From Salinibacterium sp. PAMC 21357 (GTDB lineage Bacteria; Actinomycetota; Actinomycetes; Actinomycetales; Microbacteriaceae): a stretch of 64,000 nucleotides of DNA. Below, piece after piece: positions 10,382 through 21,995 of the stretch (position 1 is the first letter of the stretch; each line of letters starts with the position of its first letter). Both the position numbers and the translations under genes were made by a program. The stretch covers positions 434,001-498,000 of the forward strand of contig NZ_AHWA01000002.1 of the NCBI RefSeq assembly GCF_000247645.1, read 5' to 3'. A model generated the notes under the pieces. It was not told the origin of the DNA, searched no databases, and was given only the letters and a program-made list of their open reading frames with translations.

Positions 10382-11122
10382 CTAGAGACCCGACTCGTCA
10401 GTGCGCACCAGGATCGCTTCGCTGCTGGCACACATGATGATGGAGTCAGGGGCTGCCGCACGGATTTCTTGCATCTCATTCTCAAGAAGCTTGACGCCGG
10501 ATGCGAGCGAAACACCGCCACGAAGAAGCGATGCTCCTGTTCCGTAGCGTGAACGCTGACGTTCGTAGAGCGCGAGGAGATCTTCGGGAAGGGTCTGCTG
10601 AAGCGATGCGCGGCCGGCACGAACGGTGCCGAGTTCTGCCTCAATGTCGCGAAGTGCTTCATCACGACTTGCCTCTAGACCTGAAGTCTCAGCGGTGAGA
10701 TTCGCGGCCTGCTCAAGAAGGTTGTCAACAATTTTCTGTTGCCCTTCGAGGCGCTCCATCACTGCCAACTCAATGTCTTCCAAATTACTCAAACGAGTTC
10801 GCAACGCGGCCAACTCCTGCTCGAATGCCGCAGCATCCTTGGCGGATGACGTGGCATCGAGTCGAGCACTATCGCGAGCGATCCGAGCGTCGACAACCTT
10901 GACATCAGAATCGACCCGGCTGAGTTCGAGTTCGATATCGTCCTTGATACCGCGCTCTTCAAGAAGGGTCAACTGAAGCTTGTCCCGGTGTTGCTGCAAC
11001 TCGGTGAGGCTCGTGTGTTGCGGAAGCTTCTTAGCGCGGTGCTCCAACTGCGAAATTTTGGTGTCGAACGCCTGCAGTTCGAGCAGACGTGCTTGGTCGG
11101 CCGGGCTAGCAGTTAACGCCAT
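10382..11122 (-). CDS. Coiled-coil zinc-ribbon-family protein (COG1579) with a degenerate zinc ribbon
   Basis: A 246-aa protein of the coiled-coil plus C4 zinc-ribbon family, usually annotated as nucleic-acid binding. About 180 residues form a long antiparallel coiled coil (LLELQAFDTKISQLEHRAKK at the start). The C-terminal ~50 residues align to the ribbon, but three of four zinc ligands are Ser: the first CxxC is SLAS (GVSLASGVKL) and the second CxxC is CASS (IMCASSEAILVR). The surrounding residues of the ribbon (EIRAAAPD, ILVRT.ESGL) are retained, so this is substitution and not truncation. It lies 30 bp downstream of the Nif3-like gene on the same strand, the usual partner in actinobacteria. 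AGAAAGAAG precedes the ATG. Confidence 0.88.
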   Translation of the reverse strand: MALTASPADQARLLELQAFDTKISQLEHRAKKLPQHTSLTELQQHRDKLQLTLLEERGIKDDIELELSRVDSDVKVVDARIARDSARLDATSSAKDAAAFEQELAALRTRLSNLEDIELAVMERLEGQQKIVDNLLEQAANLTAETSGLEASRDEALRDIEAELGTVRAGRASLQQTLPEDLLALYERQRSRYGTGASLLRGGVSLASGVKLLENEMQEIRAAAPDSIIMCASSEAILVRTDESGL

Positions 11123-11152
11123 AGTGGTACTTCTTTCTGTATACCGGTGTGC

Positions 11153-11971
11153 TTACTGCACAACCGCAAAATCCCAAGGGTCGGTGCGCAACTCGCTCAC
11201 CGTGATCGTTACTTCTGGAAGCAGCGCCTGCAACTCAGTAGCTGCGGCTTCTAGCCACAACCATTCGCTTGCCCAGTGCGAAACATCGACAAGCGCGGGG
11301 CCCTGCATGAGACGAGCATTCTCTCGCGCCTCAGACGCGGGATGATGTCGCAAATCGCTCGTGATGTACACATCAGCGGCAAGCACGGCAGGGTCATTCA
11401 AGTATGCGTCACCCGCTCCCCCACACAGCGCCACAGACTGAACAACCTGGTCAAAATCGCCAGCAACACGGATTCCGGACGCCGTTGGTGGCAGAATTTC
11501 GCCAATGAGACGAGCGAGCCGGCCCAGCGTCATAGCCTCCGGCAGTTTTCCGGTGCGGCCGATCCCGCGATCTGGAGTCTCTCCGACCACGATGGGGGCG
11601 ACATCCGTTAGCCCCAATTTCGCCGCGAATCGTCCGGAGGTTCCGGTCTCGACGACATCCGCATTGGTATGAGCGGCAATCAGGGCACACTCTGCTCGCA
11701 CGAGCTTTGTGAGCACTGCACCCTTGTAGCGGTCGCTAGCGATCGAGGTGACACCCCGCAACAGCAAAGGATGGTGAGTGATGAGCATGTCTACACCCTC
11801 ACCGATCGCTTCGTTCACGGTGTCGAGCACGGCATCAACTGCGAGCGATATACGGTTCACTGGGGCATCAAGATCGCCCGCAACGAGCCCAACCGCATCC
11901 CACGATTCGGCGCCCGAAGACGGCCAAAGTTGTTCGGTTACAGCGATGACATCCGCGACAGTAGTAGACAC
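11153..11971 (-). CDS. Nif3-like dinuclear metal centre protein (GTP cyclohydrolase 1 type 2 homolog)
   Basis: A 272-aa NIF3/YbgI family protein, which forms a toroidal hexamer with a two-metal site; its physiological role is unsettled. Metal ligands are visible in ITHHPLLLRG (two His), AAHTNADV (His, Asp) and near the C-terminus in LVDVSHWASE (Asp/His/Glu). The GTG start at 11971 (MSTTVADV) is supported by the spacing of an upstream TAGACT box. It follows the giant permease gene by 9 bp on the same strand and precedes the zinc-ribbon-family gene. Confidence 0.9.
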   Translation of the reverse strand: MSTTVADVIAVTEQLWPSSGAESWDAVGLVAGDLDAPVNRISLAVDAVLDTVNEAIGEGVDMLITHHPLLLRGVTSIASDRYKGAVLTKLVRAECALIAAHTNADVVETGTSGRFAAKLGLTDVAPIVVGETPDRGIGRTGKLPEAMTLGRLARLIGEILPPTASGIRVAGDFDQVVQSVALCGGAGDAYLNDPAVLAADVYITSDLRHHPASEARENARLMQGPALVDVSHWASEWLWLEAAATELQALLPEVTITVSELRTDPWDFAVVQ

Positions 11972-11977
11972 GCTTTC

Positions 11978-11983
11978 AGTCTA
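11978..11983 (-). promoter_or_regulatory. Candidate leaderless -10 box of the Nif3-like gene (TAGACT)
   Basis: TAGACT on the minus strand ends 6 nt before the GTG at 11971. Its first three bases are the TAG stop codon of the upstream giant gene, so stop and promoter element share bases. Confidence 0.5.
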
Positions 11984-14900
11984 GGCGTGGCGGGTAGCGC
12001 GCTCCGAACTACCTGCCTCTTGATGGCGAATCGCAGGGATACCGGCAACGAGCGGGGTCAGGATGCCGAGGACAAGCGCAACGAGCACACCAAGGTCGGT
12101 TGCTGCCAGCTCGGAGTTGAGGTCGACGCCTAGCGCGACGAACCCATAGCCTTGCCACGAGAGCCAACCAATTGTTGCGCTTGTCAGCGCAAACCCGATT
12201 GCCGAAATCGCGAGGAACGCGCTGAGGTTGACCCAACGAACATCCGCGTAAATTCCGCCGCGAGAGGTCAACGAAGCACTGTCTAGTCGACGGTTGCGAA
12301 TCATTGTCTCTGCAGCGAAAATTCCGACCCACGCTGCTGTCGGAACCGCAAGAGTCGTAGCCACGTCGCGGAAGAGTTCGTTAATTCCCCCATCGATACC
12401 GAAAGCGAACAGGATGGCCAACGCACCCAACAGCACGCCGACGATCACGATTGACCACTGCCGCGGAAGGCGTACGCCAACAGCCTGGAGTGCGAATCCG
12501 CCCGAGTAGAGACTCAATGTGATGCCCGAGAGCAGACTGAGTGCCGCGGCCAGGAGCAGCGGGATCGGATACCATCCGGGCAGCAGAGTCAGCAAGGTGT
12601 CGAGAGGTGATCCCAAGAAATCGCGGGCGATTGCCGGATCGGATGCTGCCAGAAGTGCGCCGTAAGCGATGAGCACGAATGCGGGCAGTGTCGCGCCGAA
12701 CGAGGCTGAGAGTGCCGAAGCTGCTCCACTCGACGACGTGCGTTGGTAGCGCGCGATATCGGCGCCACTGTACGCCCAGACCAAGCCCAAGAAGCTAAAC
12801 ACGAGCACAGCGCCGGTGAGGGTAAGCAGCCAAGAGCCATCGGGAGTCGTGAGCGCCTGAGCTACATCAATGTACTGAGCGGTAAAAGCGATGAGCCCGA
12901 CAACGAGCACTCCGGAAATAATGCTCAAAATCAACTGGATGCGCGCAAAGAGCGGGTAGCCAGCAAACGCGATAACCAGCGCAACCAAGAACGAAAGTGC
13001 CAAGGCAATGAGGAGAAGCTGACGATCGCCCAATCCAACATTGAGATCAGAGCCGATGAGCACGATAGTGACCGAGGACGCCAAAACCCAGAGCAGCACT
13101 GCGCCCCAGAAGAGTCGTGCGACCAATGCGATGACCGACGGAACCACGTTTCCGACCACGCCAAACGCGGATCGGGAAATCACCATTGTTGGCTGTCCGC
13201 TGCGCTTGCCCGCGAGCGTCGTGAGCCCTAGCGGGATGAAGGATAACGCCACGCCAGCCAGAATTGCCACGATTGATTGGCGAAGACTCATTCCCACCGC
13301 GAAGACGGCAGCACCGAGACCGAGACTCACAATCGACGAGTTCGCCGCAAACCACAGCCAGAACATCCGGGCCGCTTGGCCCACGCGGCGATCCATGGGA
13401 GTGGGCTCGAGGCCACTCTCTTCGAGACTAAAAACCGGCTGAGCGGTCGGAGCTACGTCTCCGAGACCAAGAGGTTGTTGGCTCACGCGTGCGTTTGAGA
13501 GCAACATCGGTTGCGGGACCGCTGCAGAATCTGTTGCCTGCGGTGCAGCGACGCTCGGTGCGTTCGAAACAGGCGCTGACGGTGAAGCGACAGACGGTGC
13601 GGCGATGTGTGCCGCGGCAGCAGAACCGGCGATGCCGGCAGCAGCACCCGCAGCGAAGGGGATCGGATTGCTGTCGAGAGAGGTGTCGGGCGCGGCTAGA
13701 TCGGAGGAGTCGGTCGAGCGATCGCTCGCGTCTACAGCCTCATCCGTCTCCGCTTCCTGCATTGCGTCGGTGATCGTGACTGATCCGGTCTGCACGTCCG
13801 AGAGTGGGTCACCCTGTTGAACAGGGCTCTCGGGCTCGGCGATGAACAGATCAAGCGGATTAACGTCGTCGTCCTCGGGCTCATCGTCGATGACATCGAC
13901 GTCATCCGTCTTCAGCAGGTCGTCAAAGCTAACCGGAGCGCTGGGCACATATCGCGGAGTTTCTTGAGACGCGAAGCTAAAGGTGGCGGATGCTGCCTCA
14001 GTTTCGAGATCCTCGACCGCAGTGTCGCTATCGACCGCTGTTGTGTCCGCTGCGTTGTCGCTGAATGCTTCAGTGTCGGTCGCTAGCGGTTCGGACGTTG
14101 CTGCCGACGCAGACTCGGAAGGCACATCGAGGCCGAAAGCAAACGGTGGCTCGGCTTCGGGCTCTGCGATGGGTGCCGCCGCGCTTGCGGATGCCTCTGG
14201 CTCTCCAGAGATCGGAGGAGTGAAGCCAAAGTCGCCGAAAGAGACATGCTCATCAAGATTTGAGCGAGGTGTCGACGGTGCGGTAACCGGCTCGACGAGG
14301 GCCGGAGGGGCGAAAGGAATTTCGTCGTAGTCGCCGTCCTCATCGAGAGGAAGCTGCGGAGACGGCGCAAAACGACTGGCCTCTGGGGCGCTGAAATTGT
14401 CATCAATTGGCGGCGCAGTGGGTTCTTGAGGCGATGCGATGCCGCCCAAGCTCAAGAGTCCGGATTCCGCGTCGAAATGGGGCACGACCTGTTCAGGCCC
14501 AGTCTCGATCGCGGAAGCCGTTTCGGCTTCGGCTTCGGACGGGGCTTCGGCTTCGGCTTCGATCGCAGAATCAGAGTCGGCGTCTTCTTCAGTCGTTACC
14601 TGCCCTGTCGGGGCAACGTCAGCCAGCAAGCCCACCCCGGGCGCGATTACCGGTGCCGATTCCGATTCCGATTCCGATTTCGAATCGTCAACTTCTTCTG
14701 GCGCAGGCTCTGGTGTCGGTGCGGCGAACTGAGCGACATCAGGGACGCTGGCGTGAGCGGAGTCATCCGCACTGGGCGCGAACCGCGACTGACCGAACGA
14801 TACGTTGTCGGACTCCGAAGCACGGGGGCTAACCGATTCCGGTGCCTGCATGCTTTCGGTTGTCGGCCCTGATGGGCTATCCGCATCTTGGAATGGAAGC

Positions 14901-17900
14901 GTGATCGAGCCAGTAGGGTCGGCATGCGCGGCGAACGGAATCTCGTCATCGAAGTCGGCCCCAGGAGACCACGAGTCACTGGGCGGTGGCACCTCCCACG
15001 CTGGCAACTGAACGGCAGGTGTCACGGGAGCAGCGGCGGGGGACGCAGAATTTTCGACCACAGCAGGCCCAGCTGCATCGGTGGAAACATCACTGCGCGG
15101 TGCAGGATCAGCAACCGATGGGCTGGTCGCATCGTCAGCGTCGCCGGCGTCTGCGCGGCCTTGGGAACGAAGAGTCGTCTCCCACTCACGGTATTCACGT
15201 GCGTCTTCTTCGCGCAGGCGAAGCTGAGCTTCGAGCACCTCAATTACGCTCAACGTGCCGGTTGATTGGTTCTCAGGGCTGTCGGCCCACGTCAGTAGCT
15301 CATCGTCGGCCATGGAACGCCGCACAGGAGGCGTCGGAATCTCTGTTTCAGCCGCGGAGACGTCAGGCTCAGTAGTGGGGATTTCGGTAGCAGCAGCGGA
15401 CACTGCATCTTCGCCATTGAAGGCTTTGGTCTCACCAGCAAATTCACCGGCCGCAGGCGGAGCTAATAGGTTGCTCTGGACGACCGCGTCAGCTACGTCC
15501 GCGCTCGGCGCAACAAGAGTCTGGTCGGGTGCCTCGAAGGGTGGCTGCGAGATTGACTCTTCGTCGGCAAGCGTTGATGCTTCCTCGATTACCGGAACGT
15601 CAGTGGACTCGGGCTCTTCAGCGTCCGGTGTCTCATCGATTACTGCGGAGGAGTCGACTGGCTCAAAAGCGTGGAACGGGTTCCACTCCTCAGGAGCGTC
15701 TGAATCGGGAACTTCAGCTTGAGAGATTGGCTCTTCCGCAGACTCTCGCGAGTCGAGGGAATCAGCGGTATCCGTTGACGCGAAAGCGGCAAACGGGTTC
15801 CATTCTTCAGGTGTCGGCGCCTCTGCTGCGGCAGCAGGAGAAGTCTCTGCGTTCGCGTTCGCATCTACCTCGTCTGAGTTGAGCACGTCAACAGGTTCGA
15901 CTTTTTCCGTCGGCACTGCGGCTTCAGCAGGCGCGACGGGCTCAGCTGGCGCGATGGGCTCAGCGGGAGCGAAAGATTCGACAGGACCTGCGAATTCCGA
16001 AGGAGCGAAAATTTCGGCAAGAGCAACTGCTTCTTCAGAAGGTGTCGCTACTTCAGGAGCAATCCCTTCTTCAGAAGCGGTCGCTTCTTCAGGAGCAGTC
16101 CCTTCTTCAGAAGGCGTCGCTTCTTCAACTGCGGTCGCTTCTTCAGACAGGGCAGGCTCGGTCGGTGCCGCGAAAACTTCCGGGTCTTCGGCCGGCTCGA
16201 GCACATCTTCCGTGTTCGACGAGTCATGTTGCGCGAAGGGAGTCCACTTTTCCACTGACGGACCATTCACCGATCCATCGGTAGCGGCGTCCGCGCTGTC
16301 TTCAGCTTCTTCAGCGTCGACAGCCGCCGGTATTTCAGATCCGGAAGGCTCATCCGCGGAATCAAGAGCGAGAGCGTCGTGAGCACTATCAGCCTCACCC
16401 GATGGGACGACGAAGTCGGCTGGCGCGAAGGACTCAGCTGACTCGGATGGTTCTGGCGCTTCTGCCGAAGCCGAGACCACTGTGGCTTCAGGAACGTGCG
16501 ACGAGTCCAAGACCTCAGGCGGCGCTTCTGCCGCAGTTGCATTTTCTGACTCGTTGCCGTGATCGTGAGCGTCTAGGTCCAGACCAGCATCGGCCACATC
16601 AGGCGCGAAGCCTAGTAGTTCGCCGAAGTTTGAGTCCTCGGCACCAACCGGCTCGCTCGCTTCCTTCACGGGGAAAGAGGGATCGTTGTCGAGAGAAGAC
16701 GGCTCGTTGTCGGACGTTTGCGCATCGTACGGTTGATCATCCGTTTGCTTGGGCGCGAATTCTGCCGCTGCCGTTGCGAAAACATCGGCGGGAAACTCTA
16801 GCGACGATGAGCGCTCGACATCGAGACTCGGTTGAGTATTTTGCAGCGGGTCGGGTGCGCCGACTCCGTCGAGGTTCCACATGGGGGCGCCCTCGATTAC
16901 TTCCGCTACCGGAAGCGGAAGTCCGGCGGCGGCAACATCGTCGGCTTCGCTGGCCTCGGGCGGAGTAGCCACGTCGTGGGACTCAGTCGTGTCTGCAGAA
17001 CCGATCGCGTCGCCAATCGAAACAGCTTCGTCGGACGAATTAATCTCCGCAGTGGAGGCATTCTCGTCAGGGGCAAGAACGGCGTCAGGCGACGCTTCGT
17101 TGTCGTCCGAAACATCGTTCTCGTAGGCAGCGGCGGGTTCGTCCTGAAGGTCGGTCTCGCCTAGAGCGGTGGGCTCACTGTCAACCGGCGCTTCGTCGGC
17201 TGCCGTGGCGTCAGCGGTGATTGTGTTTGGCTCAGCGACGACTAGTTCTTCAAGCTCTGGTTCTTCAAGCTCTGGTTCTTCAAGCTCTGGTTCTTCAAGC
17301 TCTGGCTCAACCGTGGCTGGCTCTGAAGCCGCGGTCGCCGGGCTCACGTTTGGTTCGAGCGGTCCGAGCTTCCAGACGTTGTTGGTTTCAGGAGCGTGAT
17401 CTGACGATACGGAGTCGAAAGGATCTACAGCGGGCGATACATCCGCCCACGATGTGTCGTTTACGGTCTCGGCTTGAACAGAATTCGCTGTCGGGTTCTG
17501 AGTCGCGAACAACGCATCGAAATCGAAGTCTTTGGATGCTTCGGGCTCTGCCGATTCGGCGACGTTGTCTGCCTGGTTTCCTGATCCGTCGCCATCGACG
17601 GCGGACTCTGAAGCTGGGCTCAGGTTCAGAGCGACGTCGGTTTCATCTTCGTCATTGCTGACAGGAGGTCGACGTCGAGAAATACGTGACGCGAAGAAGT
17701 CGGGCGTCGTGTAGTCGGCGGGGATTCGGTAAGGATCGTCGTCCTCGGGGGCAGCATCCTTGGGCTCAGGGGCGTCAGGAGCAGGAACCTCAGGGGCATC
17801 CTGGTCGCTGGAGAGCCCGTCAGGGGCATCGAGTTGGGACACCGCCTGTGTGGGATCTGGTGCTGGCGCCATCGCCCAGGGAGGCATGCCCTGGTCGAGC

Positions 17901-18223
17901 GCATCAGAAAGATCGGACCGCTGAAACTCTTCATTCAAATCGATGGGAGCAAAGCTCGAGGCGCTAGGGGGCGGCGCGGGCACATTGGTGGGTTCGTCAG
18001 ACGGCGAATCGCTCGACGCAGTAAAAGCCGCATCCAGATCGAATACTCCGTCACTTGAGGCTTCGCTCGAGTCGACAGGTTTCGTCTTCTCGTCATCGTC
18101 AGCCGAACTATTTACCGGAAAACTTGACGCCGCGCGTCGAGGAAAACGTAGCTCGAAATCTTGCTCTGAAGACGTCTTTTCGTTCGCATCGTTTGCGTCG
18201 TCAACGTCGTCGTGGAATGCCAT
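11981..18223 (-). CDS. Giant 2080-aa protein: ~1600-aa acidic low-complexity N-terminus fused to an NCS1-like permease
   Basis: One uninterrupted reading frame of 2080 codons. Residues ~1-1609 (DNA 13397-18223) are almost entirely Asp, Glu, Ala, Ser, Pro, Thr and Val with scattered Trp/Phe, no signal peptide and no recognisable fold; I predict a disordered, strongly negative chain. Residues ~1610-2080 (DNA 11984-13396) hold 12 hydrophobic segments resembling the NCS1 nucleobase:cation symporter family (cytosine permease type): MFWLWFAANSSIVSLGLG in TM1, VWAYSGADIARYQR in TM6 (compare the family's ADYxRY) and GIYADVRWVNLSAFLA near TM11. Short motifs recur in the tail: EEWNPF twice plus EKWTPF, EIPFA twice plus IPFAAG, SRFAPS twice, and four PELEE units. 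ATG 18223 (MAFHDDVDDA) is preferred over TTG 18229 because a TAAGAT box ends 6 nt upstream. The substrate and the purpose of the tail are unknown. NCS1 proteins are normally 400-550 aa. Confidence 0.85.
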   Translation of the reverse strand: MAFHDDVDDANDANEKTSSEQDFELRFPRRAASSFPVNSSADDDEKTKPVDSSEASSDGVFDLDAAFTASSDSPSDEPTNVPAPPPSASSFAPIDLNEEFQRSDLSDALDQGMPPWAMAPAPDPTQAVSQLDAPDGLSSDQDAPEVPAPDAPEPKDAAPEDDDPYRIPADYTTPDFFASRISRRRPPVSNDEDETDVALNLSPASESAVDGDGSGNQADNVAESAEPEASKDFDFDALFATQNPTANSVQAETVNDTSWADVSPAVDPFDSVSSDHAPETNNVWKLGPLEPNVSPATAASEPATVEPELEEPELEEPELEEPELEELVVAEPNTITADATAADEAPVDSEPTALGETDLQDEPAAAYENDVSDDNEASPDAVLAPDENASTAEINSSDEAVSIGDAIGSADTTESHDVATPPEASEADDVAAAGLPLPVAEVIEGAPMWNLDGVGAPDPLQNTQPSLDVERSSSLEFPADVFATAAAEFAPKQTDDQPYDAQTSDNEPSSLDNDPSFPVKEASEPVGAEDSNFGELLGFAPDVADAGLDLDAHDHGNESENATAAEAPPEVLDSSHVPEATVVSASAEAPEPSESAESFAPADFVVPSGEADSAHDALALDSADEPSGSEIPAAVDAEEAEDSADAATDGSVNGPSVEKWTPFAQHDSSNTEDVLEPAEDPEVFAAPTEPALSEEATAVEEATPSEEGTAPEEATASEEGIAPEVATPSEEAVALAEIFAPSEFAGPVESFAPAEPIAPAEPVAPAEAAVPTEKVEPVDVLNSDEVDANANAETSPAAAAEAPTPEEWNPFAAFASTDTADSLDSRESAEEPISQAEVPDSDAPEEWNPFHAFEPVDSSAVIDETPDAEEPESTDVPVIEEASTLADEESISQPPFEAPDQTLVAPSADVADAVVQSNLLAPPAAGEFAGETKAFNGEDAVSAAATEIPTTEPDVSAAETEIPTPPVRRSMADDELLTWADSPENQSTGTLSVIEVLEAQLRLREEDAREYREWETTLRSQGRADAGDADDATSPSVADPAPRSDVSTDAAGPAVVENSASPAAAPVTPAVQLPAWEVPPPSDSWSPGADFDDEIPFAAHADPTGSITLPFQDADSPSGPTTESMQAPESVSPRASESDNVSFGQSRFAPSADDSAHASVPDVAQFAAPTPEPAPEEVDDSKSESESESAPVIAPGVGLLADVAPTGQVTTEEDADSDSAIEAEAEAPSEAEAETASAIETGPEQVVPHFDAESGLLSLGGIASPQEPTAPPIDDNFSAPEASRFAPSPQLPLDEDGDYDEIPFAPPALVEPVTAPSTPRSNLDEHVSFGDFGFTPPISGEPEASASAAAPIAEPEAEPPFAFGLDVPSESASAATSEPLATDTEAFSDNAADTTAVDSDTAVEDLETEAASATFSFASQETPRYVPSAPVSFDDLLKTDDVDVIDDEPEDDDVNPLDLFIAEPESPVQQGDPLSDVQTGSVTITDAMQEAETDEAVDASDRSTDSSDLAAPDTSLDSNPIPFAAGAAAGIAGSAAAAHIAAPSVASPSAPVSNAPSVAAPQATDSAAVPQPMLLSNARVSQQPLGLGDVAPTAQPVFSLEESGLEPTPMDRRVGQAARMFWLWFAANSSIVSLGLGAAVFAVGMSLRQSIVAILAGVALSFIPLGLTTLAGKRSGQPTMVISRSAFGVVGNVVPSVIALVARLFWGAVLLWVLASSVTIVLIGSDLNVGLGDRQLLLIALALSFLVALVIAFAGYPLFARIQLILSIISGVLVVGLIAFTAQYIDVAQALTTPDGSWLLTLTGAVLVFSFLGLVWAYSGADIARYQRTSSSGAASALSASFGATLPAFVLIAYGALLAASDPAIARDFLGSPLDTLLTLLPGWYPIPLLLAAALSLLSGITLSLYSGGFALQAVGVRLPRQWSIVIVGVLLGALAILFAFGIDGGINELFRDVATTLAVPTAAWVGIFAAETMIRNRRLDSASLTSRGGIYADVRWVNLSAFLAISAIGFALTSATIGWLSWQGYGFVALGVDLNSELAATDLGVLVALVLGILTPLVAGIPAIRHQEAGSSERATRHA
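15905..16160. repeat. Imperfect tandem repeats in the giant gene (SEE/APAEP units)
   Basis: On the plus strand, units such as CTTCTTCAGAAG and GCTTCTTCAGGAGC recur every 18-24 bases at about 16020-16150. GGCTCAGC units recur at 15925-15970. They encode alternating SEE, EEA and APAEP-type peptides. The divergence between units suggests older slippage expansions followed by drift. Confidence 0.7.
17246..17305. repeat. Four perfect 15-bp tandem repeats encoding PELEE
   Basis: TTCTTCAAGCTCTGG is repeated four times without a mismatch. The unit is a multiple of three, so copy-number change keeps the giant reading frame open. On the minus strand it encodes P-E-L-E-E. Identical copies indicate recent expansion. 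Confidence 0.92.
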
Positions 18224-18229
18224 GCACAA

Positions 18230-18235
18230 ATCTTA
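18230..18235 (-). promoter_or_regulatory. Candidate leaderless -10 box of the giant gene (TAAGAT)
   Basis: TAAGAT ends 6 nt before the ATG at 18223 on the minus strand, and no Shine-Dalgarno is present. From here to the tRNA terminator at 18431 I see no other convincing feature. Confidence 0.55.
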
Positions 18236-18430
18236 GGGCGAAGCCAGTACTTTGCGGGGATGACGAGCCGTGCTCAGCACAGATATTCCAGCAAATCTGA
18301 GTACGAGACCAGCGGAGTAGACCGGCGCATGCAGCTCACTCACGAAGATTGCCACCGTAGTCGCTACGCGGCTGGCGACTGCTGCGGCACTCGGCGCTGG
18401 GGAAGCGATCGGAGAGTTTGCGGGAAATGC

Positions 18431-18461
18431 AGAAAGCCCCCGTTGTTGACGGGGGCTTTCT
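18431..18461 (-). terminator. Terminator after tRNA-Val
   Basis: A perfect 13-bp stem (18431-18443 with 18449-18461) with a 5-nt loop lies 2 bp downstream of the encoded CCA end of tRNA-Val. On the minus strand the arm ends in TTTCT. Confidence 0.9.
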
Positions 18462-18463
18462 CT

Positions 18464-18539
18464 TGGTGGGCCCTACCGGGATCGAACCGATGACATCCAC
18501 GGTGTAAACGTGGCGCTCTACCAGCTGAGCTAAAGGCCC
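18464..18539 (-). tRNA. tRNA-Val (anticodon TAC)
   Basis: Cloverleaf on the minus strand: acceptor GGGCCTT with AGGGCCC, anticodon stem CCACG/CGTGG around loop TTTACAC (anticodon TAC), and T arm ATCGG-TTCGATC-CCGGT. The 3' CCA is encoded (18466-18464). Confidence 0.97.
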
Positions 18540-18616
18540 GCAGCGTCGCAATGCGAAGCAGCGCTCGATAATGCTACATGGTTTTTCGTGCCCGCTTCAC
18601 ACCCACCCCAAATCGG

Positions 18617-19090
18617 TCAGCTCCGCCCAGAAGTGAGAGCCACAATTGAGTGTTCATAGTCGGAGAATTGCCGCGCTTCGCCCAGCGCCGCCTCGATCAC
18701 ATCCCGCACCACTCCGTCCTGGTCCACAAGAAAACTCGCGCGACGGGCAAACCCCTTATCTGCCAGCAATACTCCGAAGGCCTCTGCTGTGCGCCCATGC
18801 GGCCAAAAATCAGAGAGCAACGAGAGTTGGATTGCCTCGGCATCCGACCACGCCCGCAGCGTTGCCGTCGAGTCCACCGAGATCACAACGATCTCCACTC
18901 CGGCGCTCGCCGCCACATCATGCCACTCGTTGAGCTGCGCAACTTCATCAGTACACACTGCCGAAAAGGCGAGCGGGACAAAGACCACGAGCACGGCACG
19001 ACGCAACAGGAGCTCACGCAACCGGATGGTCTGCCCATGCTGATTGCGCAACTCAAAGTCGGGCGCCACAGCCCCGATCGTGATCGTCAT
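18617..19090 (-). CDS. Peroxiredoxin, AhpE/1-Cys type
   Basis: A 157-aa thioredoxin-fold peroxidase that reduces hydrogen peroxide and organic peroxides. The peroxidatic site is PLAFSAVCTDE with C46; P39 and Ser43 take the places of the family's P and T/S. There is no second cysteine, so it must use an external thiol, as AhpE does. The FELRNQHGQTIRL start and ASFLVDQDGVVRDV are typical. GAGGGG precedes the ATG. It is divergent from aceE. Confidence 0.92.
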   Translation of the reverse strand: MTITIGAVAPDFELRNQHGQTIRLRELLLRRAVLVVFVPLAFSAVCTDEVAQLNEWHDVAASAGVEIVVISVDSTATLRAWSDAEAIQLSLLSDFWPHGRTAEAFGVLLADKGFARRASFLVDQDGVVRDVIEAALGEARQFSDYEHSIVALTSGRS

Positions 19091-19269: not shown

Positions 19270-21995
19270 GTGACGGTAAACGACCAGGACCCATACTCGG
19301 TAACCAACACCGATAAGGACCCAGAAGAGACCGCCGAGTGGAACGAATCACTCGACTCCCTAGTTGCAGCACAAGGCCATGAGCGCGGTCGCGAGATTAT
19401 GCTCAGCCTGCTCAAGCGTTCCAAAGATTTGCACCTTGGTGTGCCGATGGTTCCCACCACCGACTACATCAACACGATCGCTAAAGAAGATGAACCTGAT
19501 TTTCCGGGTGACGAAAAACTCGAGCGTCGCTACCGTGCGTGGATCCGCTGGAATGCAGCGATCACCGTGCACCGCGCCCAGCGCCCCGGTGTCGGGGTTG
19601 GCGGCCACATCTCGACCTATGCGTCGTCTGCCGCGCTCTATGAAGTAGGGCACAACCACTTCTTCCGTGGCGCAGACCACGAATCTGGTGGAGACCAAAT
19701 CTTCTACCAGGGTCACGCCTCCCCCGGTATGTACGCTCGCGCCTTCCTCGAAGGTCGCATGAGCGAAGACCAGCTCAAGGGGTTCCGTCAAGAGAAATCT
19801 CAAGCTCCGAACGGCATCTCGAGCTACCCGCACCCGCGCCTCATGCCCGAGTTCTGGCAGTTCCCGACCGTCTCGATGGGCCTGGGCCCGATCAACGCGA
19901 TCTACCAGGCACAGAACAACAAATACATCAGCAACCGCGGTATCAAGGACGTGTCCGACAAGCAGGTCTGGGCATTCCTTGGTGACGGCGAGATGGACGA
20001 GGTCGAAAGCCGTGGAGCCCTGCAGTGGGCAGCCAACGAGAACCTCGACAACCTCAACTTCGTCATCAACTGCAACCTTCAGCGCCTCGACGGCCCGGTT
20101 CGCGGTAACGGCAAGATCATTCAGGAGCTCGAGAGTTTCTTCCGCGGTGCCGGCTGGAACGTCATCAAGGTTGTCTGGGGCCGCGAGTGGGATGACCTGC
20201 TCGCGAACGATCATGAGGGCGCGCTTCGCGACCTCATGAACCGCACTCCCGATGGTGACTACCAGACCTACAAGGCAGAGTCTGGCGCTTACGTTCGCGA
20301 GAACTTCTTCGGTCGCGATCCTCGCACTCTCAAAATGGTCGAACACCTCTCGGACGACGTGTGTGGAACCTCAAGCGCGGTGGCCACGACTACCGCAAGG
20401 TTTACGCGGCATTCAAGGCCGCGAACGAGCACAAGGGGCAACCGACTGTCATTCTCGCGAAGACGGTCAAGGGCTATGGCCTGGGCCCGAGCTTCGAGGG
20501 CCGCAACGCGACCCATCAGATGAAGAAGATGACGCTCGATAACCTCAAGAAGTTCCGCGACGAAATGCACATCCCCATTACGGATGCCGCACTCGAAGCA
20601 GATCCGTACCAGCCGCCGTTCTACCACCCCGGTGAAGACGATGAAGCAATTCAGTACATGCAGGAGCGCCGTCGCGAACTAGGCGGCTATGTACCCGAGC
20701 GTCGCACCAAGCACACGCACATCGAGTTGCCAGAGGCGAAGACCTACGACGTCGTCAAGAAGGGCTCCGGCAAGCAGGAGATCGCCACCACCATGGCTTT
20801 CGCTCGACTGCTCAAGGATCTTCTGCGTGACAAGTCCATTGGTAACCGCATCGTTCCGATCATCCCGGATGAGGCACGCACGTTCGGCATGGACGCCTAC
20901 TTCCCGACCGCGAAGATCTACAACCCCGCCGGGCAGCACTACACCTCAGTAGACCGCGAGCAATTGCTTGCCTACAAGGAAAGCCCGCAGGGCCAAATCG
21001 TGCACGTTGGCATCAACGAAGCGGGTGCCTTCGCGGCGTTTACCGCTGTTGGTACCTCATATGCAACTCACGGCGAGCCGCTAATCCCGGTTTATGTCTT
21101 CTACTCGATGTTTGGGTTCCAGCGCACTGGCGATGCCATGTGGGCTGCCGGCGACCAGATGGCTCGCGGTTTCATCATGGGCGCCACGGCCGGTCGCACG
21201 ACGCTGACGGGTGAAGGCCTGCAGCACGCTGACGGCCACTCGCTGCTTTTGGCATCCACAAACCCTGCGGTTGTCAGCTATGACGCTGCCTATGGTTACG
21301 AGCTTGGCCACATCGTGCGCGACGGTATTGAGCGCATGTACGGCGGCAAGCACGAGGATCCCAACGTTATGTACTACCTGACGTTGTACAACGAGCCTCT
21401 TGTTCAGCCTGCTGAACCTGAGAACTTCGACGTCGAGGGTGCGTTGAAGGGTATCTACCACCTCTCGTCAGCGACGATCACGGGGCCGAAGGCTCAGTTG
21501 CTTGCTTCCGGTGTTGCGGTTCCGTGGGCACTCGAAGCGCAGCAGCTCTTGGCATCCGACTGGGGCGTTGCCGCTGATGTTTGGTCGGTCACGTCATGGA
21601 CCGAACTGCGCCGAGACGGCCTTGCGGCGGAGGAGTTCAACTTCCTCAACCCCAACGAGGAACCTCGCGTGCCTTATGTCACGACGAAGCTTGCGGAAGC
21701 GAAGGGCCCGTTTGTGGCACTGACCGACTTCATGCACGCCGTGCCTGATCAGATCCGCGCCTTCGTTCCCGGCGACTTTGCGACATTGGGTGCCGACGAC
21801 TTCGGTTTCTCTGACACTCGCGCGGCTGCACGACGCTTCTTCAAGATCGACAGCCACTCGATGGTCGTTCGCACCTTGCAGTCGCTCGTTAAGCGCGGCG
21901 AAATGGATCCCGCTGTTCTTGCTCACGCAATTGAGAAGTACAGCCTCCATGATGTCAATGCGGGCACCACCGGTTCTGCCGGCGGCGAAAGCTAG
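19270..21995 (+). CDS. aceE: Pyruvate dehydrogenase E1 component, homodimeric type (one apparent base missing)
   Basis: This thiamine-diphosphate enzyme decarboxylates pyruvate and acetylates the lipoyl E2 (encoded elsewhere). Family landmarks are [20 protein letters not shown], the ThDP motif [35 protein letters not shown] and, in the second half, [20 protein letters not shown] and MLTG-type loop residues around [13 protein letters not shown]. The frame breaks at ~20359: MVEHLSDD should run into [18 protein letters not shown], which continues one frame over. Adding one base gives about 908 aa, the usual length. The start is GTG 19270 with GAAAGAGG upstream. The stop is 10 bp before a possible start of fasR, linking acetyl-CoA supply with fatty acid genes. 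Confidence 0.92.

Follow-up and report, generated by a model that had tools for sequence, protein, structure and literature searches.

Results

A single reading frame joins an acidic tail to a permease

We analysed a stretch of 64,000 nucleotides from Salinibacterium sp. PAMC 21357 (contig NZ_AHWA01000002.1, positions 434,001 to 498,000), hereafter called the window. As listed in Table 1, one open reading frame (ORF) on the reverse strand encodes a long acidic tail followed by an NCS1-type permease and lies directly upstream of a DUF34/NIF3 gene. The frame at 11981-18223 runs through 2080 codons without a stop. NCS1 proteins usually have 400-550 amino acids (aa) and short termini, which is their usual and not their defining trait; the 2080-aa product departs from it. 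In several lineages the tail outlives the transporter core.

Table 1. Features of the tailed permease gene and its downstream neighbours (window positions; TM1, first transmembrane segment).
Feature	Positions	Strand	Remarks
Whole gene, acidic tail and NCS1-type permease	11981-18223	(-)	2080 aa
TAAGAT, -10-like box	18230-18235	(-)	6 nt ahead of ATG 18223; pattern in orthologs
Tail, residues 1-1601	13421-18223	(-)	net charge -320; linkers 47-56% identical between close relatives
Conserved N-terminus MAFHDDVDDANDAN...	18140-18223	(-)	most relatives outside the clade have G-P-R-R-S-T-F-T-P-P here
Motif D1 PPWAMAPAPDPTQAV, residues 114-128	17840-17884	(-)	PPWxxxPAPDPxQAV in 21/57 tails
Tandem repeats in tail	17245-17305		15 bases; in-frame
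Tandem repeats in tail	16029-16147	(-)	18/36/54-base periods; in-frame
Tandem repeats in tail	15924-15972		18 bases; in-frame
Module C, residues 965-1039 (PPVRRSMADDELL...TLSVIEVLEAQLRLREEDAREYREWE)	15107-15331	(-)	~75 residues; profile matches in tails
Motif D2 LPAWEVPPPSDSW, residues 1073-1085	14969-15007	(-)	LPAWEVPxPS in 20/57 tails
Motif E VSFDDLL, residues 1431-1437	13913-13933	(-)	18/57 tails
Junction motif LEPTP, residues 1605-1609, ahead of TM1	13397-13411	(-)	pattern LEPTPxDxRxG in 36/57
Permease domain	11981-13402	(-)	PF02133; best matches of model Mhp1 and CodB
DUF34/NIF3 gene	11153-11971	(-)	9 bases after permease stop
CT398-like coiled-coil hairpin protein, zinc-ribbon family relative	10382-11122	(-)	PF24481, E 1.6e-43

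Relatives were searched in 60 genomes, 27 of them of the same genus, and separately in 199 genomes of the family. A permease ortholog was present in 27/27 same-genus genomes, the source genome included, at E 7.7e-181 or better, and the open frames of the best matches measured 967-2188 aa in 25 of the 27; the two short ones, in G015 (791 aa) and G018 (503 aa), both have module C on another contig. The named relatives include Salinibacterium, Rhodoglobus, Glaciihabitans, Lacisediminihabitans and Leifsonia, among others. In the family set, a permease match at E <= 1e-50 was found in 90/199 genomes, at 108 places that form two groups. Counted from stop to stop, which overstates true lengths, the frames had a median of 991.5 aa at the places with at least 40% identity (n = 60, three below 600 aa) and of 535.5 aa at those with less than 40% (n = 48, 34 below 640 aa), the latter group also holding orthologs with tails in five small genomes (G036, G076, G079, G140 and G201). 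No relative was seen with tail and permease as two intact adjacent genes, the arrangement that an earlier reading of this DNA, made from its letters only (the sequence-only reading), had named as counting against one long protein.

That reading had also considered an independent start of the permease part. A start codon just before TM1 was not conserved, the best position being ATG or GTG in 16/54 orthologs, and in a consensus scan of 11000-18700 the gene's strand showed no promoter-like site, either inside the gene or at its start. The same two-hexamer scan likewise did not report the -10-like box proposed at the gene start. A TANNNT box stood 5-8 nt ahead of the chosen start in 37/41 orthologs (those, of 67 sequences, whose start could be picked by pattern) versus 23/1640 ATGs of the window. 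With a spacing of 4-9 nt allowed, it was present in 12 of 19 further genes, including 7/11 tails without a transport core, a count that depends on starts chosen by the analyst. Transcription from the TAAGAT box would yield a leaderless or nearly leaderless mRNA. By eye, an ACGGCYCGKCA-like stretch was seen ~40-50 nt upstream of ATG 18223 and upstream of the -10-like box; it recurs in most of the non-Leifsonia orthologs compared for the box and is a possible operator or -35 element. The 2080-codon frame was confirmed as real and not a fusion artefact.

The permease domain

The assignment to NCS1-type permeases held: residues 1608-2017 matched PF02133 (E 6e-30; 104.9 bits against a gathering cut-off of 23.5). 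The NCBIfam model TIGR00800 (ncs1) gave 68.4 bits, below its cut-off of 353.1. By these profile scores the permease is a member of PF02133 outside the core NCBI subfamily. Simple hydropathy gave 11 hydrophobic segments, all after residue 1628. The predicted structure had a mean predicted local distance difference test score (pLDDT) of 78.5 and a predicted template modelling score (pTM) of 0.81, and Foldseek ranks 1-5 were Mhp1 and CodB, as for an Mhp1/LeuT-type fold; the best PDB entries were 4d1a (E 2.4e-9) and 7qoa (E 7e-8), at 16-19% identity. With phmmer, the permease gave no match to PDB sequences at 0.01, and its profile reached Mhp1 only at E 0.00096. W125 of the aligned permease fragment was invariant in 31/31 sequences and aligned with a tryptophan that we take to be Trp117 of Mhp1. 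Since the other Mhp1 site residues differ in this weak alignment, it does not identify a substrate or an ion. Within its own genome, the permease was the only NCS1 match at E <= 0.001. Where NCS1 proteins carry the N-tail motif N-X-D/S-Phi-X-P (~10 residues before TM1), this permease has S-G-L-E-P-T-P, with different letters.

Composition, length and motifs of the tail

The tail contains 175 D, 185 E, 13 K and 27 R (pI 4.05), and residues 1-1601 matched no Pfam family at E <= 1. As the sequence-only reading had foreseen, a long acidic tail of varying length is kept in relatives: counted from the first start, it has 869-1708 residues in the window's clade (n = 11) and a median of 409 (range 159-867) in 46 other orthologs. 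In Salinibacterium amurskyense DSM 16400 it measures 1526 aa. Over 57 tails the median net charge per residue was -0.15; the one exception was L086 (+0.04), whose non-acidic upstream frame is perhaps due to a frameshift. The view of the tail as plain low-complexity sequence had to be given up: it is not uniform and carries conserved islands, short motifs and a predicted-folded module. A strict RRSTFTPP-type motif was found in 29/57 tails. The tandem repeats offer in-frame ways to lengthen the tail.

Three other ideas about the tail were rejected or gave no lead. GPRRSTFTPP, which the window itself does not contain, gave no lead as a shared sorting signal: its 9 matches in 9/30 genomes, assigned by contig and position, all fit the tail gene or its split tail (reversed control, 0). 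The tail is not confined to marine species, as Leifsonia and others carry it. Nor do ordinary NCS1 paralogs of 32-39% identity have long tails: in five of seven (L088, L089, L091-L094, L097) the N-termini have 14-30 aa, while the upstream open stretches of L089 (474) and L093 (133), of uncertain start, are longer.

A conserved module within the tail

Module C follows the pattern PPxRRSLPDxEL...TLxVIExLExQLRLRExEAREFxxWE (alignment A3). At E < 1e-3 its profile matched 42/57 tails, a number that includes the 27 seeds of the profile; among the 30 non-seed tails it was found in 15, in nine at 1e-23 or better. A pattern for a Leifsonia-type form matched only 3/9 tails tried. AlphaFold2 modelled residues 131-200 of the relative L077 (791 residues) as three helices with pLDDT 87-95; elsewhere the tail was mostly at pLDDT 30-44, the exception being a short helix at 52-65. 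The whole-model pTM was 0.51, and the placement of the module relative to the permease is therefore not informative.

The A3 profile gave one match per genome in 29/60 relatives and 54 matches in 53/199 family genomes, G130 having two. G130, a small genome (78% complete, two contigs), carries two module C genes, L162 and L163, each before a NIF3 gene; they reflect either a duplication or a mixed assembly. Weak matches elsewhere in the genome occurred in G118 (E 0.0019) and G101 (E 0.003). The window's module C had no Pfam match at E <= 1, and 24 members of the module gave a best Pfam E of 0.0098, single and unrelated. Among solved PDB chains there was no convincing relative (best E 0.055), and neither search found sequence homology of module C to a known scaffold.

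Tails without a transport core

Some module C matches lay too near NIF3 to leave room for a permease. DNA upstream of NIF3 was read in 40 loci of 39 genomes, in two sets of 20, the first chosen as lacking or weak in permease. At the same gene position, 11/40 loci (11 genomes, five other genera) encode a tail that contains module C and lacks a transport core; 5/40 (L144, L151, L160, L166, L167) had a tail with a recognisable permease and 18/40 had neither, proportions that are not those of the family because the loci were chosen for a missing, weak or questioned permease. The module C score exceeded 500/500 composition shuffles in 11/11 core-less tails.

The core-less tails end in different ways. 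L132 (240 aa) has one C-terminal transmembrane segment. L133 and L153-L156 keep only the permease's last hydrophobic segments (profile positions 337/345-480 of 494), four in each, with permease-end matches at E 2e-10 (L133), 6e-13 (L153), 4e-7 (L154), 0.0016 (L155) and 1e-6 (L156). L152 has two hydrophobic segments and a module C match at E 1e-22, its permease match (E 0.35) not being significant. L139, L157 and L158 have no transmembrane segment and finish in tryptophan-rich basic ends such as GWWSRFVARILQAFGRR (hydrophobic moment 0.59-0.77), which may bind the membrane; module C of L157 was matched at E 9.1e-11. L170 also has no transmembrane segment and ends in KKRRRLWPFGRR. In a FastTree tree of NIF3 and the zinc-ribbon-family protein (98 loci, support values not shown), core-less tails appeared in three places: a clade of nine, L132 and L170.

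The other six of the 40 loci, from five small genomes (L150, L161-L165), encode module C with ~12 hydrophobic segments that no longer match the permease profile, and the five of them that were scanned gave no PF02133 match. Perhaps these transporters are turning into plain anchors, or they have a new substrate.

Rates of evolution

In 12 pairs from the window's clade (11 sequences), the ratio of nonsynonymous to synonymous substitution rates (dN/dS) was 0.11-0.29 for the tail and 0.01-0.05 for the permease, rough values since dS was saturated (> 1) in most pairs. On these ratios the tail codons are under purifying selection. In four close-clade pairs, identity was 86-91% in module C and 87-90% in the permease versus 47-56% in the linkers, and both halves of the window's protein come out as selected. 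For two small-genome pairs, the module was at 88 vs 67% and 78 vs 43% against the transmembrane part; in the other pairs, transmembrane part versus module gave 74 vs 76, 84 vs 59, 70 vs 60, 51 vs 43, 26 vs 29 and 28 vs 37%. Core-less tail genes had dN/dS of 0.26-0.61 in six pairs, indicating genes that are kept under weaker constraint than in the window's clade.

Neighbouring genes

NIF3 lay within ~180 bases downstream in 58/60 tailed loci (L031-L087, L090, L095 and L096, the last two of which carry tail plus permease); of the exceptions, L057 ends inside the permease and L069 has NIF3 4.5 kb away. Near seven ordinary short-type NCS1 homologs, no NIF3 was present in the stretch fetched (7/7). 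Because NIF3 adjoins so regularly, we regard the tailed permease as one old, vertically kept gene and not an island, in line with the conserved housekeeping neighbourhood described earlier. According to passages of PMC3372290, NIF3 and the zinc-ribbon-family gene are an old pair, adjacent in many bacteria. The zinc-ribbon-family neighbour at 10382-11122 (-) matched only PF24481 and has a single cysteine in its translation, a trait that the same passages report for many actinobacterial DUF164 proteins (PMC3372290).

Farther off, aceE (pyruvate dehydrogenase E1; 19270-21995, (+)) is read as an ORF at 19270-20523 and another at 20361-21995, which overlap and differ in frame, while in the relative L134 it is one ORF of 950 aa. 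The split is a frameshift or a sequencing error in the window's assembly.

Discussion

We give a probability of about one half to the reading that the gene encodes a membrane-anchored disordered tether presenting module C to a putative partner. From the N-in topology of NCS1/LeuT-fold transporters, the N-terminal tail would lie in the cytoplasm. Its flexible acidic chain would hold the small module of three helices, along with short motifs that contain aromatic residues or arginine, away from the membrane, where they could bind one or more putative partners, and the permease would be the original membrane anchor. In Salinibacterium the strong conservation of the permease makes continued transport very likely, so that it would not be mere ballast and transporter and scaffold would be joined in one protein; in other lineages the core would have been lost, leaving the tail attached to a permease remnant, to one helix or to an end of basic aromatic sequence. 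In favour of a tether stand the conservation of module C at the level of the permease in the close clade, its confidently predicted helices, its recurrence in the family, the core-less tails in three places of the tree, and the two small-genome pairs in which the module is better conserved than the transmembrane part. That some related bacteria keep the tail after losing the core suggests that it has its own job at the membrane's inner face. We further propose, more tentatively, that these genes form a new Microbacteriaceae scaffold family with module C before NIF3, in which the permease served as an exchangeable anchor. At least three times the anchor would have shrunk to a small number of helices, a lone helix or an end that binds the membrane, with the scaffold kept, and in Salinibacterium the tail would have been lengthened to ~1700 residues. 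The tether or scaffold idea thus survives from the sequence-only reading, which was right about the NCS1 domain, the tail and the neighbourhood and had missed the module and the core-less tails in 11 genomes.

Several observations weigh against a tether. Module C is missing or unrecognisable in 15/57 tails, mostly of Leifsonia, and the transmembrane part is more conserved than the module in the pairs at 84 vs 59, 70 vs 60 and 51 vs 43%. Many species can do without the gene, as the 18/40 loci with neither tail nor permease show. The evidence for L170 is weak, with a module C match at E 0.0075 over 20 profile positions, and phmmer of L170 linked it to no tail. Since constraint on the core-less tails is weaker, some of them may be decaying.

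The main rival, which we hold possible with less confidence, takes the tail as the regulatory arm of a working transporter of a nucleobase or similar ring, sensing a cytoplasmic signal or partner and gating transport via the junction motif. The position of the conserved LEPTP helps it: NCS1 proteins have their N-tail motif here, and in fungal FurE that motif governs specificity (PMC6597760). So do the low dN/dS of the permease, the invariant W125 and the lack of a second NCS1 match in the genome. Loss of transport is not indicated here, as the permease is under strong selection in the window's clade. Regulation of transport would, however, leave unexplained the 11 genomes that keep the tail without a core, and also the six small-genome loci that keep module C while their 12 hydrophobic segments match neither the profile of the family nor, in the five scanned, PF02133. 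Because tail and module occur without a transport core, the tail's job is not only transport regulation.

An unspecific acidic brush, acting as cation or metal buffer, crowding sensor or salt adaptation and drifting in length via repeats, would fit the net charge of -320, the repeats and the wide spread of tail lengths between the window's clade and the other orthologs. We consider it unlikely: specific islands are conserved, similarly charged tails occur in non-marine genera such as Leifsonia, and acid content alone would not preserve the module. The crowding-sensor and cation-buffer proposals of the sequence-only reading found no specific support. Two genes joined by frameshift or misassembly, or a permease made from its own internal start, might be suspected from the three of 60 family matches (>=40% identity) with frames under 600 aa, two of them at contig ends (G236, L071), and from the non-acidic frame of L086. 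Such an artefact is extremely improbable, for the single frame recurs across independent assemblies. Chance open frame, misassembly and internal start were rejected on the basis of the orthologous frames, the selection on tail codons, the -10 box before the tail and the start and promoter scans.

Searches by word in one open-access library returned no paper on such a protein, a result that does not show its absence from print. The closest structural relatives, the hydantoin permease Mhp1 and the cytosine permease CodB, are alike in the PF02133 match and as best PDB matches of the model; the protein described here differs in its 1601-residue tail and is only 16-19% identical in the structural matches. 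FurE of Aspergillus nidulans is, in passages of PMC6597760, an NCS1 transporter with regulatory cytosolic tails whose N-terminal motif before TM1 tunes specificity, and the termini of bacterial and other prokaryotic relatives are there described as shorter than eukaryotic ones. Both proteins are of NCS1 type and have a motif of the N-terminus immediately ahead of TM1, and the tails of FurE are functional; the tail here is far longer, contains a predicted folded module and also occurs without the core. SpmX of Caulobacter is presented in passages of PMC8849385 as an integral membrane scaffold in which a large part in the cytoplasm is disordered and the transmembrane helices are C-terminal. The likeness is one of layout only, as no homology was found here: the window's protein likewise has a folded part, a long region judged disordered from composition and low pLDDT only, and a membrane anchor. 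The other domain of SpmX has a muramidase fold. ZipA-type tethers combine a membrane anchor, an unstructured P/Q-rich linker and a small partner-binding domain; here the order is reversed and the linker is acidic rather than P/Q-rich. Bacterial secondary transporters are usually pictured as bare membrane bodies with short ends. Here, across a whole bacterial family, tails reach as much as three times the transporter's size and include a conserved module that is predicted to fold, and a membrane-bound protein is placed beside the pair of NIF3 and zinc-ribbon-family genes. If the proposed tether is real, these lineages would offer a series of natural experiments on what a transporter's tail does on its own, and would show how a permease can become a membrane anchor.

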